In this document: positions 7,628 through 48,800 of the stretch, piece by piece | Numbering within the stretch: the first letter of the stretch is position 1 | How the letters are laid out: every line of letters begins with the position of its first letter | Source of the DNA: a virus | DNA: 51,700 nucleotides | Strand: one strand, 5' to 3' | Virus record (IMG/VR): IMGVR_UViG_3300021168_000005 | Location: 1-51,700 of that record | The notes under the pieces: model-generated | Database searches by the model: none | What the model saw: the letters and a program-made list of their open reading frames with translations, nothing else | Told to the model about the DNA's origin: nothing | Program-made: the position numbers and the translations under genes

Positions 7628-7812
7628 ATGAATTTAATCAATGTCCAACATGTAAACATTCTCTTGAGGATAACCAACATGGGTTCGATCAAAATGATGG
7701 ATACATGGATGGTGATAAATTGATCCTCTATGGAACTTGCACGTATTGTAAGATTTGTAATCCAACTTTGTTTCGTAAAAAGGAGTGGAAAGATGCCTCT
7801 AACGCTAGATGA
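7624..7812 (+). CDS. Small zinc-ribbon-like protein
   Basis: 62 aa from the ATG at 7624, which overlaps the helicase stop as ATGA; an in-frame ATG at 7609 is less likely. Cys pairs CPTC near residues 7-10 and CTYCKIC near 43-49 suggest one zinc ribbon. Function unknown; it overlaps the MazG start by 20 bases. Confidence 0.6.
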   Translation: MNEFNQCPTCKHSLEDNQHGFDQNDGYMDGDKLILYGTCTYCKICNPTLFRKKEWKDASNAR

Positions 7813-8137
7813 ATATCAAAAAACTTGCAAAGATACAAGAGCTTATAAAGATTACGGCCAAGGTACAATCGGTCCCGTATCTTATTGTGTTCTGGGTCTT
7901 TGTGGTGAAGCTGGAGAAGTAGCAAATAAAATCAAGAAAATCCTGCGCGGAGATTATATTCTCGATGCGCTAGCAATAGACCAAATTCTTGATGAGCTTG
8001 GCGATGTTCTTTGGTACACTGCCATGCTTGCAGATGAGCTTAATGCTGATCTATCGGTTGTTGCTATGAAGAATTTAAACAAGCTCCGCTTGAGAAAAAA
8101 TATGAACACTATAAAAGGAACTGGAGATAAACGATGA
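7793..8137 (+). CDS. MazG-like nucleotide pyrophosphohydrolase
   Basis: 114 aa from the ATG at 7793, supported by AAAAAGGAG upstream. The pattern GLCGEAGEVANKIKK followed by ILDELGDVLWYTAMLADELN is the all-alpha NTP pyrophosphatase signature, in which the acidic residues bind magnesium. It probably hydrolyses (d)NTPs or ppGpp-like nucleotides to tune the pool. No PurZ or DatZ gene was seen, so there is no reason to propose a 2-aminoadenine genome. Its stop overlaps the next start (ATGA). Confidence 0.85.
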   Translation: MPLTLDEYQKTCKDTRAYKDYGQGTIGPVSYCVLGLCGEAGEVANKIKKILRGDYILDALAIDQILDELGDVLWYTAMLADELNADLSVVAMKNLNKLRLRKNMNTIKGTGDKR

Positions 8138-8703
8138 AGTCAAAAGATAATTTTGATCCAAAAGAATGGGCCGTTATTAATGAAAGTGAAGCTTTACGTG
8201 CTGTTGATGATAGAATTTTAGTTCTCGAAGATGAATTTCGTTCAGGTTTAGAATGTTCTTCTTGCAAAGGTAAAGGCCATACAGATATAGTCTGTAAATA
8301 TTGTAAAGGTACTACATTTTACAAAGCAGACCGTGATAGCGGCGCCTGTCCTGACTGTGAAGTCGGCACTTTAGGGATTAGAAAGTCCTTTGGATACGAG
8401 CTTTGCAGTGTATGCAAGGGCCGTGGAGCGTCTGTAATAATTCCTGACTCATCTAAGCGTCCAACACTGACGGGGCGCGTTATATCAATCGGCAGGAATG
8501 TCACAGAGTTTCGGGTCGGTGATCGGGTATTATTTACGAATTACACTGGTACAGATTTTACTGTCTCTGGTACGAAGTTAAGAATTATGAAACAGTACGA
8601 TGTGTGTTGTGAACATAAACAGCTTTCTAGAAAAGAAAAAACTCCGCAGAGCGGAGCTATTAGAGATGAACTTGTTAGTGCTGGTGTACAACCTTTAGAT
8701 TAA
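8134..8703 (+). CDS. GroES-like co-chaperonin with a DnaJ-type zinc finger in its mobile loop
   Basis: 189 aa. Residues about 21-34 (LRAVDDRILVLEDE) match the first GroES strands, and about 113-158 (TGRVISIGRN, VGDRVLF, GTKLRIMKQYDV) match the rest of the Cpn10 barrel. Between them, where GroES has its GroEL-binding mobile loop, sit four CxxC units: C41/C44, C54/C57, C72/C75 and C91/C94, three with Gly after them as in DnaJ. After the finger, SVIIP sits where GroES has its hydrophobic IVL tripeptide. It probably serves phage capsid protein folding with host GroEL. Confidence 0.8.
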   Translation: MKSKDNFDPKEWAVINESEALRAVDDRILVLEDEFRSGLECSSCKGKGHTDIVCKYCKGTTFYKADRDSGACPDCEVGTLGIRKSFGYELCSVCKGRGASVIIPDSSKRPTLTGRVISIGRNVTEFRVGDRVLFTNYTGTDFTVSGTKLRIMKQYDVCCEHKQLSRKEKTPQSGAIRDELVSAGVQPLD

Positions 8704-9071
8704 AGAACGACTTCTAGTTCTTTATCAGGATCGTTATTAATCATTTCTCTTTGAGCTTTTAGCATTCCAACTATACAACCATGAGATGCTAAATGTTGGC
8801 CGAATTTTGCTTTACTGTCGGGATGAATTCTAAAATCTTCTCTTCCGAAAGTATTAGTACCATTTATAGGCGTTAGGTTCATAGTAACTGGGCCTAACTT
8901 AAGATGGTCATAGGCTGGACCGATACGGTATAATCCTCTCGGAAGAGGACCGACATTCTTTACTTCTTGCATATTAGGATTATTAAGTCCTAATCCTATT
9001 CCTGAATAACAGCAGGCAAAAAATTCTCCGTTCTTATATAATTTTCCCGAACTCTGAGAGAAAGTCCACAC
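8700..9071 (-). CDS. DUF2778 / Tlde1-like L,D-transpeptidase-fold protein (possible lysis enzyme)
   Basis: 123 aa, GTG start with AAGGAG upstream. The C-terminal pattern FRIHPDSKAKFGQHLASHGCIVG has the HxxxxxSxGC signature of the DUF2778/L,D-transpeptidase group, with Cys as nucleophile. It has no signal peptide. Such enzymes act on peptidoglycan peptides. Placed last in the late operon and with no other endolysin visible, it is the best candidate for the lysis enzyme. Its end overlaps the GroES-like gene by 4 bases, tail to tail. Confidence 0.65.
   Translation of the reverse strand: MWTFSQSSGKLYKNGEFFACCYSGIGLGLNNPNMQEVKNVGPLPRGLYRIGPAYDHLKLGPVTMNLTPINGTNTFGREDFRIHPDSKAKFGQHLASHGCIVGMLKAQREMINNDPDKELEVVL
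8701..8724. other. Hairpin at the convergent gene junction
   Basis: TAAAGAAC (8701-8708) pairs with GTTCTTTA (8717-8724) around an 8-base loop, just where the plus- and minus-strand operons meet with a 4-base overlap of their ends. It could be a weak bidirectional terminator, but there is no T-run on either side. Confidence 0.35.
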
Positions 9072-10751: not shown

Positions 10752-11132
10752 TTATAAATCATCAATAGCTTTTTCATAATCTATCCAGTTAACTTTCAGC
10801 TCCGCTGAGAGTAGCCGTTCTAAGTTTGTAGCAAAGAAATGTTCTGTTCTATACGGAGCATGAGGATCATCTCCAGGTTCAGCATGGCTATCTTTACTTC
10901 GTTTCTTCTCATATTCAACATCAAACGCTGTTACCTGTTCATCCGTAATACCTCTGTCAAGACAGAGAAGTACCTCTACGAGTTCATGTATACCAACAAG
11001 TAATTCATATCGCCAGTTCCCAATTTTAGATACTCTTATCAAGATAGTATCTTTCTCCGCATCAATCTGCCAATCTCCGACTGTCGGATAACGTTGTTTA
11101 TCATGGTCAATAGTTTCAATTAGTATATTCAT
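10752..11132 (-). CDS. Hypothetical protein with HELVE motif
   Basis: 126 aa from the ATG at 11132, which overlaps the PurD-like stop (TAATG); an ATG at 11144 is also in frame, but AAGGA is better spaced for 11132. It contains GIHELVEVLLC, reminiscent of a metalloprotease helix though the second His of HExxH is missing, and a later HAPYRTEHFFATNLERLL helix. Function unknown; protease activity is doubtful. Confidence 0.6.
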   Translation of the reverse strand: MNILIETIDHDKQRYPTVGDWQIDAEKDTILIRVSKIGNWRYELLVGIHELVEVLLCLDRGITDEQVTAFDVEYEKKRSKDSHAEPGDDPHAPYRTEHFFATNLERLLSAELKVNWIDYEKAIDDL

Positions 11133-12406
11133 TATCTTAACCATCCTTGCGACATTAGAGTATTATATCGTTTATGTACACAAGTAAGGATATCAGCACG
11201 ATATTGCATGTTCGGTATCTGAAGTTTTTTAATTTTAGAATCTATTTTGCTAAAAGCTTCTGGAATAGTACTGCCGCTCGCAATTGGAACTGTTATTAAT
11301 CCACTAATTCCTGCGGTTACTAATTCGTCTTCTTTGTTAATGCAGCAATCATAAAGATAGTAAGACCGCCAGATATCTTCGACATCTTCTAATCCTTGAA
11401 TAGGAATATCCGGATGATGATGACCATCTATTTCAGAAGGATACGGAGGAATAGAAATTCTTACTCCACCTGCATACTGCGTTTTAATTCTGTATTCAGG
11501 TTTCACACCATGTGCTATCATTGCTAAGAACTCTGCAAGATCAGAACTTATAATATGAAATAATGTCGGAGACGCATCATAGCCGAAGCGTGGTGTCCAT
11601 TCAAGACCGTACATTTCTCGGTCACTTACGATAGTATTAAGATCAATCATCCCTCTATACTTAGCACTTCGCAAGAAGTCTTTAAGCTTTCCAAGTCCTT
11701 CCCGAAACACAAGAGGAAGATTAAGACTATCATAAATAAAAACGAGATTACCAGCGCAGCCAGTATTAGGCCCTTTCCCACCTTCCATGAATTTCTTTTC
11801 TTCGAGAGTTCCATTAACCAGATAAAAATCTTCTCCATTGAACCAACCTTCGGTAGAAACTTCAGTTCCTTCAACAACTTCTTGAAGTAGAAATTCTACG
11901 CCTTTGATAACGCTACCGAGTTTATCAATATAACGCAGCATATCTTCTGGCGACTTACTCACGTAAGTAAATGCCGTATCTTGATCTCCGAAGGCTTTAA
12001 AAACGTATCTCTTTTTAGTTTTCTTAATAAAACTCTTCGCTTCGCCAAGATCGTTAAACTCTTTGTATGGCGGAACATTAATACCACACTGTTCCATTAT
12101 CTGTATACCAGCAAGTCGGTTATTCTCAATTTCACTAGCGAAGCCACTATCGCCTATAACAGGCGCTAAAGTTGCGGCTTCATCAGCAACTTTAGCCATA
12201 TCTGTTGAATCAAAAATTATAAGATCATATTTCTTAAAATCTGGTTTCTCCATCATTAAATCAGGGCAAAGTCCTCCAAGAGCGTTGGAGTAAGCTTTAT
12301 TCTTTTTACCACAATAATAAATATCAACACTATGACCCTCTTCAAGAAATCTCAAAGAGAACCAATTACCAACGCATTCGTGAGTTACTAGTAATAGTTT
12401 TGCCAT
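11132..12406 (-). CDS. PurD-like ATP-grasp enzyme (phosphoribosylamine-glycine ligase family)
   Basis: 424 aa, close to cellular PurD length. A Rossmann-like N-terminus (AKLLLVTHECVGNWFS) precedes an ATP-grasp core containing VEGTEVSTEGWFNGEDF, EEKKFMEGGKGPNTG (the KGPNTGG motif of PurD, here GCAGN) and a late LEWTPRFGYDASPT where PurD has EFNARFGDPE. PurD joins glycine to phosphoribosylamine in purine synthesis. In a late structural operon it may instead ligate an amino acid to another substrate. It is unexpected among virion genes. Confidence 0.75.
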   Translation of the reverse strand: MAKLLLVTHECVGNWFSLRFLEEGHSVDIYYCGKKNKAYSNALGGLCPDLMMEKPDFKKYDLIIFDSTDMAKVADEAATLAPVIGDSGFASEIENNRLAGIQIMEQCGINVPPYKEFNDLGEAKSFIKKTKKRYVFKAFGDQDTAFTYVSKSPEDMLRYIDKLGSVIKGVEFLLQEVVEGTEVSTEGWFNGEDFYLVNGTLEEKKFMEGGKGPNTGCAGNLVFIYDSLNLPLVFREGLGKLKDFLRSAKYRGMIDLNTIVSDREMYGLEWTPRFGYDASPTLFHIISSDLAEFLAMIAHGVKPEYRIKTQYAGGVRISIPPYPSEIDGHHHPDIPIQGLEDVEDIWRSYYLYDCCINKEDELVTAGISGLITVPIASGSTIPEAFSKIDSKIKKLQIPNMQYRADILTCVHKRYNTLMSQGWLR

Positions 12407-30347: not shown

Positions 30348-31301
30348 TTACGGACCATTGCTACCCCAAACTCCTAGCCAATGAGAAGCACCAGCAGCAA
30401 AACGCATCTTAGATTTTTGCTTCAGTGCATCTGTGTCAAAGTCATCATCATAATCCATGTCTGGTTTTTTACGCCACATGAATTTAAGTTGATGCATATC
30501 TTTTGCACAAACTGCAAACCATGCAGTGTCAGAGGTGAGATAATGGCCAACCATATAGCCAAGATCTTCACCAAGCAATGCGTTAATTTCGTTGGTCGCA
30601 GTTCCTGGTTTTCCGGGGCTTCCTAGTAGTTCTCTTGCAAGAAAGCGAAGCGCTGGAGGAATAACCAGAGCTTTAGGCTTAAGAACAATAGGAAGACCAA
30701 CACCGTCTACAATTCGTTCAAATTGATTTGTCATTGCAATAACAGCAGCAAGGCTCAAATCAACATCTACTGCGGGACGATTAGGAAAGGTTCCAGCAGC
30801 AGAAATAACTCCTGATAGTCCAGGACCGTAATTTGTGGCCGTTGGTCCACCAAGAAGAGGATGTTGGTTATTAAAGAGACTTACACCATCAATTGTTTTG
30901 ACGGTTGAAAAGCCAAGATTAAAGATATTCCACGGAACCATTTCTTCCGTGAATCTTTGACTACGCGCTAGTGCTTTAGGAATCTGTTTAATTACGCCAT
31001 ATTGATCGTCTTCATAAAGCTCAAAAGAAGCGCGAGCAGCAAGAGCGTAGGTTAGAGGGATATAACGTAAGGTGCCACCTTGAATAACCTGTGTATAATT
31101 AACAGGAGTATTTTCAGGTTTATATGGCATCGGGCCAGTTCCTGCAAATTCTACGTCGTCTGCGTAAGCAGTAGTAATATTTTCGACGTTAAAAATAGCA
31201 GGATATTCTAGGTCCCGTTGATAAGTCTCTAACCATTGGTTAAAGAGCTTATGTATGCCAGGCGCCATTAATTGTGCATACTGGCCGCGAACCATAGTCA
31301 T
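30348..31301 (-). CDS. Major capsid protein
   Basis: 317 aa. An N-terminal helix and an ERY-like start (MTMVRGQYAQLMAPGIHKLF) lead into an HK97-fold-like layout. Segments such as FERIVDGVGLPIVLKPKALVIP and the NALLGEDLGYMVGHYLTSDTAWFAVCAK core resemble Mu-type and related HK97-fold capsid proteins. Position after scaffold-like and decoration-like genes and a strong AAGGAG support it. Not proven to be HK97-like by motif alone. Confidence 0.75.
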   Translation of the reverse strand: MTMVRGQYAQLMAPGIHKLFNQWLETYQRDLEYPAIFNVENITTAYADDVEFAGTGPMPYKPENTPVNYTQVIQGGTLRYIPLTYALAARASFELYEDDQYGVIKQIPKALARSQRFTEEMVPWNIFNLGFSTVKTIDGVSLFNNQHPLLGGPTATNYGPGLSGVISAAGTFPNRPAVDVDLSLAAVIAMTNQFERIVDGVGLPIVLKPKALVIPPALRFLARELLGSPGKPGTATNEINALLGEDLGYMVGHYLTSDTAWFAVCAKDMHQLKFMWRKKPDMDYDDDFDTDALKQKSKMRFAAGASHWLGVWGSNGP

Positions 31302-45443: not shown

Positions 45444-45974
45444 ATGCCGCGTTACAACAGAAACTCTGGTCCAGTAAACGTATCTCTTTCATGGTCTACC
45501 ATGATTGGTGCATACAATCTCAAGTTTGATAATGCCTACGGAGATTTTGATAAAGTTAAAGCAGTTATCACTTGGATTAAAATGACAATTCCTTCTAATG
45601 AACGAGATTATGATCCTGATACTTATGAATGGACTATCCACGAGAAATATTTTCAAACTCTGAAAGATGTTATTGAAGGGATTTCTGGCTTTAACTTTTC
45701 GTATTTTGAAAAGCCTCTTGGCAGTAGTCAAACGAAATTTGTTCCTTTGGATGAATACACAAAACTCTTTCAATATGTAACCAATCAAGATGCAACACAG
45801 CTTGAATATAAAGATGCGTTGCGCGCATATAGATTAGCTGCGCTAAGAATGCATCCGGATAGACATCCAGAAGATCCATCAGCAGGACAAAAAATGTCAG
45901 AATTTAACGAAGCATGGAACGTAATCAAAGAGAGACATTTTAAAATTGTGAAAGTGATGGAGCACGTTCAATGA
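45444..45974 (+). CDS. J-domain (DnaJ-type) protein
   Basis: 176 aa. C-terminal J-domain: helix II AYRLAALRM followed by the HPD motif near residues 137-139, then helix III MSEFNEAWNVIKE. It would recruit and stimulate host DnaK. The N-terminal domain (about 1-115) is not a DnaJ Gly/Phe or zinc region; it has an IPSNERDYDPDTYEW segment of unknown role. No zinc finger here; a DnaJ-type finger is instead in the GroES-like protein. Confidence 0.8.
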   Translation: MPRYNRNSGPVNVSLSWSTMIGAYNLKFDNAYGDFDKVKAVITWIKMTIPSNERDYDPDTYEWTIHEKYFQTLKDVIEGISGFNFSYFEKPLGSSQTKFVPLDEYTKLFQYVTNQDATQLEYKDALRAYRLAALRMHPDRHPEDPSAGQKMSEFNEAWNVIKERHFKIVKVMEHVQ

Positions 45975-46932: not shown

Positions 46933-47661
46933 GTGACTGAAGAAAACAAACTCGAAAAACCATCAAACATCGTTGAGATGTTTAAACCTAAGAAGTGGGG
47001 CATAGCTGCGGCAAAAGAACAAGCGAAGAAAGCAATTGCAGATTTAGACCCATCTACGATGGAACATCGTCTTGGAATCGTTTTCGATGATAGTGGTAGT
47101 ATGGGTTCTAAAGTAGATGATAAAACAAAAATAGATCATGCTCATGCAGGAATAAGAAACTTCACTGCACAATGTAATCCCAAGGATACTTCGTTAGCGA
47201 TTTATCCGCTTAATAAAACACCGCAGGCATTAACCTGCAATTACGACGTTCTCAATCTTTATGTAGGCACCATCAGAGAAAGTGGTGGAACTCCGTTATA
47301 TACAATCACAACTAAAATGCTCAACGAAGCTGATCTTACTCGTGGAGTATTATTTTCTGACGGGTCACCAACAGACGGTCATGCTGGTTATGGAGAAGAA
47401 TACGATAAAGACTTGAAAGAGGATATGATTAATTTGGCAATAGCCAAGAAAGTTCCTCTTGATACAATCTTTATTGGTTACGACGGCGAAAGTGGTTATG
47501 ATCTTCTGAAAGAAATAGCCGATCGCACAGGCGGTATCTTTGTTCATTTTAAAGATGCCAAGGCGCTAGGAGCTTCGCTTAAATACTTAGCACCCGCCTT
47601 GCGTGGAATCTTGATGAATGCAGAACTCAAAGAGAAAATACAACGTGGGGAAACAATATGA
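46933..47661 (+). CDS. von Willebrand factor A (VWA) domain protein
   Basis: 242 aa, GTG start with AAGGAG upstream. MIDAS motif: DDSGS near residues 52-56, the Thr in GGTPLY and the Asp in FSDGSPTDG. Such domains bind metal and a protein ligand. Its stop overlaps the start of the FtsK/HerA-type ATPase gene (ATGA), so the two are coupled; VWA-ATPase pairs act together in cellular systems such as MoxR-VWA. Confidence 0.75.
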   Translation: MTEENKLEKPSNIVEMFKPKKWGIAAAKEQAKKAIADLDPSTMEHRLGIVFDDSGSMGSKVDDKTKIDHAHAGIRNFTAQCNPKDTSLAIYPLNKTPQALTCNYDVLNLYVGTIRESGGTPLYTITTKMLNEADLTRGVLFSDGSPTDGHAGYGEEYDKDLKEDMINLAIAKKVPLDTIFIGYDGESGYDLLKEIADRTGGIFVHFKDAKALGASLKYLAPALRGILMNAELKEKIQRGETI

Positions 47662-48800
47662 ATCAGGTTAATAATATGAATCTAGAACAAACCAACAATA
47701 TAATTGCCCTTGGGCAGAAACTTGTTGGTTTAGGCATCGAAGCAAAATTCAGCCACGTTGAAGAAGGTCCGGTTGTCACAGTCTATTATTTTAAACTTGA
47801 CAGCGGCGAATCTGTTGCTAGAGTTATAAAACGAGCAGAAGATTTTGCTTTAGCAATGGAACAAGATAAAGTGATGGTTCAACGTGTCGGCGGTTTAATT
47901 GCCGTATTCGTTCCCAATGCAGAAAAAAAGATTGTAGACTTTAAGGATTATCTATACTGGTATCTCAATGATCCGAAAGTTAAAGCGCAAGCTCTTCCAA
48001 TTCCTTTGGGAGTTGATTATCGTGGTAATAAGAGTACTTTCGATTTAGTAGATATGCCACACTGTTTAATTACAGGTTCTACTAATAGCGGAAAATCCGT
48101 ACTCGAAGCGGCGATTCTTTCAGCGCTAAGCTTACATCGCGCGTCTAACGAGCTTAATTTCTATCTCTGCGATACTAAAATGGTCGATCTTCCACTTTTT
48201 AAAGATTTCCCACATGTAAAAGTAGTCGCAGATAACGTCCAAGCTTTTCATAATATGATGACTTGGATTATGCAAGAAACGCGGCGAAGACTCGCCGTCT
48301 TGCAAGGAGCTAGCTGTAGGAAAATCCAAGACTATCATAATATGTATAGCGGAGATATATCTATGATGCCGTATATCATAGTAATGATAGATGAGTTTGG
48401 AGACTTGATGGATCTTGACTCTGCAATTCGTAAAGGAGGCGATACCCTTGACGAAGTTCCTACCGTTAAACAATGGATTAAAAGTGCATCCCAAATATGC
48501 CGTGCAGCAGGCGTACATCTTATCTGTTGTACCCAACGCGCAAGCGTTAAAGTTGTTGATGGTGACATCAAAGCTAACCTACCTTGCAGGATTTCCCTTC
48601 GGTTGCCAACCCAAACGGATTCTCGTACTATTCTCGGTATTGGGGGAGCGGAGAATTTATTGGGCAATGGTGACATGCTTATCGCAAGGCCGGGAAAAGA
48701 TGCTCTTGAACGTTTTCACGGTCCATTTGTGTCGATGAATGATATAGCAGCGCTAATTTCTCAATATGATATGATGAAAACTATGTTCGCACCTAAATAA
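47658..48800 (+). CDS. FtsK/HerA-type DNA-translocase ATPase
   Basis: 380 aa. N-terminal region (PVVTVYYFKLDSGESVARVIKRAEDFALAM) matches the alpha/beta start of FtsK motors. Walker A GSTNSGKS is near 140-147, Walker B IIVMIDE near 240-246, then CTQRAS and GRPGKD-like late motifs. No transmembrane part and no C-terminal gamma (KOPS-reading) domain. It could move DNA or a protein-DNA complex, perhaps regulated by the VWA partner. Confidence 0.8.
   Translation: MNQVNNMNLEQTNNIIALGQKLVGLGIEAKFSHVEEGPVVTVYYFKLDSGESVARVIKRAEDFALAMEQDKVMVQRVGGLIAVFVPNAEKKIVDFKDYLYWYLNDPKVKAQALPIPLGVDYRGNKSTFDLVDMPHCLITGSTNSGKSVLEAAILSALSLHRASNELNFYLCDTKMVDLPLFKDFPHVKVVADNVQAFHNMMTWIMQETRRRLAVLQGASCRKIQDYHNMYSGDISMMPYIIVMIDEFGDLMDLDSAIRKGGDTLDEVPTVKQWIKSASQICRAAGVHLICCTQRASVKVVDGDIKANLPCRISLRLPTQTDSRTILGIGGAENLLGNGDMLIARPGKDALERFHGPFVSMNDIAALISQYDMMKTMFAPK

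Follow-up and report, generated by a model that had tools for sequence, protein, structure and literature searches.

A predicted family of phage GroES co-chaperonins that carry a DnaJ/BSD2-type zinc finger in the mobile loop

The window considered here is the whole 51.7-kb stretch of DNA analysed, which is IMG/VR virus record IMGVR_UViG_3300021168_000005. Its genes include those for a terminase, a head-tail adaptor/portal-type protein, a head protein, a DNA polymerase, and a primase, which identify the genome as that of a tailed phage. The gene for the major head protein is located at 30348-31301 on the - strand. One of its genes encodes a predicted GroES-like protein with a zinc finger (finger-GroES); the features of this gene, together with two other genes discussed below, are as follows.

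7730-8137, + strand: MazG-like pyrophosphatase gene, which overlaps the finger-GroES gene (Pfam MazG, 1.2e-8; PHROG)
8134-8703, + strand: whole zinc-finger GroES gene, ATG start, 189 amino acids
8197-8229, + strand: predicted first strand of the Cpn10 barrel, residues 22-32, RAVDDRILVLE (strand 27-32 in the model; joins the GroES profile when the finger is omitted; alignment with ordinary GroES)
8254-8427, + strand: putative DnaJ/BSD2-type zinc finger in the mobile loop, residues 41-98 (profile matches, conservation)
8254-8265, 8293-8304, 8347-8358, and 8404-8415, + strand: CxxC units of the finger
8434-8445, + strand: mobile-loop tripeptide VII followed by P, residues 101-104, the presumed GroEL contact (conservation)
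8467-8613, + strand: second part of the Cpn10 barrel, residues 112-160, which lacks the roof-loop hairpin (Pfam Cpn10, alignment, model pLDDT about 94-96)
8614-8700, + strand: C-terminal tail, which has a conserved Leu and is predicted to contain a helix (family alignment, AlphaFold model)
45444-45974, + strand: gene for a J-domain protein that has the HPD motif and lacks cysteines or a finger (Pfam DnaJ, 1.3e-7, above the cut-off)

The ATG of the finger-GroES gene overlaps the TGA stop of the MazG-like gene upstream. On its other side, the gene is convergent with one for a Tlde1-domain protein (8700-9071, - strand; 1.1e-11), possibly a cell-wall enzyme, and the ends of the two genes overlap by a few bases.

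The sequence-only reading of this locus described two Cpn10 barrel halves, DDRILV and GRVISIG...VGDRVLF, around four CxxC units, and all of these elements were located: DDRILV at residues 25-30, VIIP at 101-104, GRVISIG at 114-120, and VGDRVLF at 128-134, with the CxxC units beginning at C41, C54, C72, and C91. As that reading also stated, the units at C41 (CSSCKGKG) and C91 (CSVCKGRG) are full CxxCxGxG motifs; those at C54 (CKYCKGTT) and C72 (CPDCEVGT) are degenerate. Pfam Cpn10 (PF00166) matches residues 100-159 at E=1.4e-9 (38.3 bits, cut-off 21.1), and the PHROG GroES family matches at E=1.2e-8. The best sequence match in the PDB is 7ekq chain R, from the chloroplast Cpn20/double-Cpn10 group. 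Each of the 48 family members described below matches Cpn10 at E<=0.01.

An AlphaFold model built from the alignment of these 48 members (mean pLDDT 82.8) has a Cpn10 barrel with both halves, in which strands 27-32 and 112-119 flank the finger; the mobile-loop region is less confident (pLDDT about 68). The two outcomes that would have counted against the architecture, a structure with no Cpn10 barrel or a finger placed elsewhere than between the first two strands, are thereby excluded at the level of the model. Cpn10 chains rank first in a Foldseek search of the PDB (E 1.8e-5 to 1e-3). In a search against viral models, the model of a 78-residue phage GroES superposes at 1.9 A with a target TM-score of 0.86; this fit spans 141 alignment columns, so the finger forms a gap in it. 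None of the 50 viral models among the matches listed covers the whole architecture (best query TM-score 0.39), with the long entries A0A8S5RQD3 and A0A8S5S075 left uninspected. Sequence comparison and modelling thus confirm the predicted nature of the window protein, a phage Cpn10/GroES with a four-CxxC insert in the mobile loop.

The GroES fold might instead have been reused in a structural or enzymatic part that has no co-chaperonin activity, such as a head component or an enzyme similar to alcohol dehydrogenase, and weak matches to PHROG 931 (head morphogenesis; 6/48 members) and to Pfam ADH_N (4/48) point that way. This reading is highly improbable given that all members match Cpn10 and that Cpn10 chains lead the fold searches; moreover, the tripeptide and the P[D/E] after it would have no reason to persist. 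For the window protein itself, identification as a GroES-like zinc alcohol dehydrogenase was rejected, as the ADH_N match reaches 15.9 bits (cut-off 23.5) over only 25 residues.

The position of the insert becomes apparent when the finger is omitted in silico: the window protein then aligns with ordinary GroES across the mobile loop, where they differ by a single residue, an HMM of ordinary GroES scores it at 50.0 bits instead of 43.9, and the part of the profile that is covered extends from 22-91 to 3-91. Omission of the finger raises this score in 44 of the 48 members, by 3.3 bits on average, and the flanks of the loop are in register with those of GroES in the alignment. Hydrophobic residues occupy tripeptide positions 101, 102, and 103 in 48, 44, and 43 of the 48 members, respectively, followed by P in 42. 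Both these alignments and the model give good support for insertion of the finger at the mobile-loop tip, immediately ahead of the hydrophobic tripeptide predicted to bind GroEL.

The nature of the insert is evident from the family as a whole. The HMM comparison that the sequence-only reading called for was positive for Cpn10; for the window protein alone it was sub-threshold for DnaJ_CXXCXGXG (PF00684; E=0.057), a model that matches 27 of the 48 members, and BSD2_CRD matches 20. The 22 inserts that have four motifs were used to build a finger profile, which matches the E. coli DnaJ finger (1exk; 2.9e-5) and chloroplast BSD2 (6ekb; 1.4e-6) across all four motifs; BSD2 is by sequence the closest solved structure to the finger. 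Kinship to DnaJ is accordingly claimed at the family level, where profiles indicate it. With that qualification, the finger profile, the alignment with ordinary GroES, AlphaFold, and Foldseek agree on the earlier proposal of a DnaJ-type finger in the mobile loop before VIIP. No J-domain was matched by Pfam in the finger-GroES protein, which thus differs from a type I DnaJ (Hsp40).

The insert ranges from 28 to 107 residues across the family and contains one to three pairs of CxxC units; the units are considered to come in pairs because members carry two, four, or six. Most members have four CxxC-type motifs; CxC variants occur in a few. In six members just two units are left, beside the two ends of the insert, and a full DnaJ-like finger is therefore dispensable in some members, a point against the client-holding reading given below. 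In DnaJ, one zinc is bound by motifs I and IV and the second by motifs II and III; a DnaJ-like fold would therefore tolerate losing the inner pair as long as the outer pair stays, and the sequences of the one-pair members are consistent with such an arrangement of two zinc sites. One member, L038 (13215-13937, + strand), has six units in an insert of 107 residues; its gene runs off the contig end and the Cpn10 match resumes at the contig start, so this contig is probably circular. Another, L047 (3124-3768, + strand), has a second CxxC pair at the position of the GroES roof loop besides the finger in the mobile loop.

The location of the cysteines next to the presumed GroEL contact would suit a metal or redox switch, in which oxidation releases zinc, unfolds the finger, and toggles GroEL binding; thiol-redox activity of DnaJ fingers is reported (PMC5818400). 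A structural CxxCxGxG pattern, however, usually marks a stable zinc site, and such a switch has very little likelihood.

In addition to the window protein, 47 distinct members of the family were found in IMG/VR contigs, with hit loci from approximately 49 IMG metagenomes. Scans of viral and genome contigs with a single protein or two sequences revealed no relative beyond one sister phage (L002); these scans rely on short exact peptide patterns and so missed the others. The sister phage was reached by synteny with the polymerase, which is 72% identical by tblastn; its ortholog of the finger-GroES gene is in the same genomic place, is 56% identical, and keeps all eight finger cysteines, as does each of the nine proteins in the first family set. 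Eight further true loci came from a degenerate DNA pattern that covers the last CxxC and the IVPD motif; a second, at the first CxxC and its upstream flank, gave 56 stretches, all but about two of which are members. As hits to the second pattern had to match only at the first CxxC and the flank preceding it, the fact that the remaining cysteines, the tripeptide, and the C-terminal part of the barrel are also conserved is independent evidence. Removal of near-duplicates left the 48 members that were aligned. Searches of 50,697 phage records and of plasmids, at tblastn sensitivity, revealed no member.

Several candidates were discarded: L013, L014, L042, and L070 match a pattern without having the architecture; Dulem virus 39 has no matching ORF; the protein of the huge phage LR745206 is a genuine DnaJ; and Campylobacter homing endonucleases match at E-values near 1 to 10. 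An assembly artefact or chance fusion was likewise rejected, because the architecture recurs in 48 distinct members, which come from about 49 metagenomes. The finger was probably inserted only once: a tree of the Cpn10 cores groups the family (support 0.73), although it also pulls in two short divergent ordinary GroES proteins (of DSL-LC05 and Va2).

The separate components are known: GroES, phage GroES, and the DnaJ/BSD2 finger. The placement of such a finger inside a GroES mobile loop, in a widespread family, appears to be new; full-text search of the open-access literature turned up neither a paper nor a database entry that describes a folded domain in this loop, and the GroES mobile loops compared here are short. 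As in bacterial GroES/Cpn10 (PF00166), the barrel halves, the loop flanks, and an IVLPD-type motif are in register once the finger is omitted, but in ordinary GroES the loop is short and disordered, and a roof hairpin is present. T4 gp31 and related phage GroES proteins (PHROG 3188) share with the family a phage-encoded Cpn10 fold, a hydrophobic tripeptide in the mobile loop, the absence of the roof-loop hairpin, and no need for a phage GroEL; the gp31 loop, however, has 22 residues without a folded domain (PMC6318259), where the finger family has a putative zinc finger of 28-107 residues. The DnaJ central domain (PF00684) and BSD2/ZnJ2 contain four CxxCxGxG-type motifs in the same order, whereas the phage finger is embedded in a Cpn10 loop, lacks the J-domain and the DnaJ C-terminal domains, and in most members has shorter linkers between motifs. 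Chloroplast Cpn20 and other double Cpn10s also have an enlarged Cpn10 architecture, although theirs consists of tandem domains with no finger insertion. H. pylori HspA likewise combines GroES with a metal-binding addition, but this is a His/Cys-rich C-terminal nickel extension rather than a zinc finger in the mobile loop (PMC3856676).

The finger-GroES gene occurs in two settings: it follows DNA polymerase/primase in about 17 loci and lies just upstream of genes for the terminase large subunit and a portal-type protein in 31 loci, counts that include near-duplicate loci, with seven loci unplaced by a simple gene caller. The window belongs to the polymerase-primase lineage, where the gene sits with replication genes. 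A Cpn10 search of 16 larger records gave one match in 14, none in G005, whose member (L020) is a weak Cpn10, and two in G009; since these two sit at opposite contig ends, the most natural explanation is a single gene interrupted by the break in a circular contig. A gene for Cpn60 (GroEL) is absent from all 48 records; control genomes were all positive. Separately, the GroES of phage DSL-LC05 (L076, 223-471, + strand), which has no finger, is encoded directly upstream of the portal gene, a head-module position like that of the terminase-lineage members.

T4 gp31 replaces GroES on the host GroEL and folds the capsid protein gp23; its longer mobile loop and lack of roof loops go with a cage 8% larger (PMC6318259). 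By analogy, the head-operon position in the terminase lineage fits a gp31-like role in capsid folding. The same position might suit an assembly chaperone, whose finger would catch folded but unassembled subunits, capsid protein for example, as they leave GroEL, acting after folding as BSD2 does for the Rubisco large subunit; BSD2, the solved structure nearest to the finger in sequence, is a Rubisco assembly factor (PMC5780408). In the window lineage, however, the gene is among replication genes, and the loop predicted to bind GroEL is kept, which makes a purely post-folding role quite unlikely.

The finger-GroES protein is probably a lid for GroEL with the finger at its rim. In infection, a phage co-chaperonin of the GroES/gp31 kind would cap the host GroEL and promote folding of phage proteins. 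The protein would form a heptamer and bind host GroEL through the tripeptide, which would put seven zinc fingers at the rim, the entry point for clients; there the fingers would most likely hold non-native phage protein, in the manner of DnaJ or BSD2, at the opening of the cage during lid closure. This full reading, which combines a gp31-like lid on host GroEL and client-holding fingers at the rim, is given a probability of roughly 0.45. It is proposed because gp31 replaces GroES and because ZnJ2, a chaperone with four CxxCxGxG motifs and no J-domain, binds zinc and prevents aggregation (PMC5818400). By analogy with the DnaJ finger and ZnJ2 it is plausible that the finger binds unfolded substrate and passes it to GroEL. 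The same source states that a cysteine-deficient ZnJ2 mutant retained holding activity, so conserved cysteines alone are no proof of holding.

A spacer or gripping role fits the same anatomy as substrate handover. The finger would then be a rigid zinc-stabilised extension of the loop that binds no client; it could pre-order the loop, add contacts to the GroEL apical domain, and outcompete host GroES, or lift the lid and enlarge the cage for large phage proteins, an effect that the longer loop of gp31 has. The family shares with gp31, with its larger cage, the lack of roof-loop residues; the size of the finger, from one to three CxxC pairs, varies as expected of a spacer; and the gene precedes terminase and portal in the 31 loci noted above. 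The retained CxxCxGxG glycines and the profile kinship to the client-binding fingers of DnaJ and BSD2 nevertheless exceed the needs of a spacer, and this role is a serious possibility that falls well short of even odds.

If the protein closes GroEL, a domain of 45-60 residues is tolerated at the GroEL contact and direct coupling of a holding chaperone to the folding cage becomes testable. Designers of chaperonin lids would then have a new scaffold to work from, and the family suggests an undescribed way in which uncultured phages may adapt the host folding machinery.

The J-domain protein of the window is possibly a functional partner of the finger-GroES protein. Of ten near-complete records from the polymerase-primase lineage, nine encode a J-domain match, which exceeds the Pfam cut-off in five; none of six records of the terminase lineage has one. 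This co-occurrence follows lineage and is no proof of a link. A more elaborate and rather doubtful proposal is that of a merged chaperone, an Hsp40-type client-holding finger in an Hsp60 lid, by which one viral protein would deliver clients to the host GroEL rim and close the cage; in the window lineage the separate J-domain protein might connect these clients with host DnaK, so that the virus would run a relay from DnaK to GroEL. Elsewhere in the window, an FtsK/SpoIIIE-type DNA translocase with an alpha domain (47658-48797, + strand; 5.5e-29) is unusual at this phage size, and an ATP-grasp protein similar to phosphoribosylglycinamide synthetase (11132-12406, - strand; GARS_A, 2.1e-11) is encoded among the structural genes.
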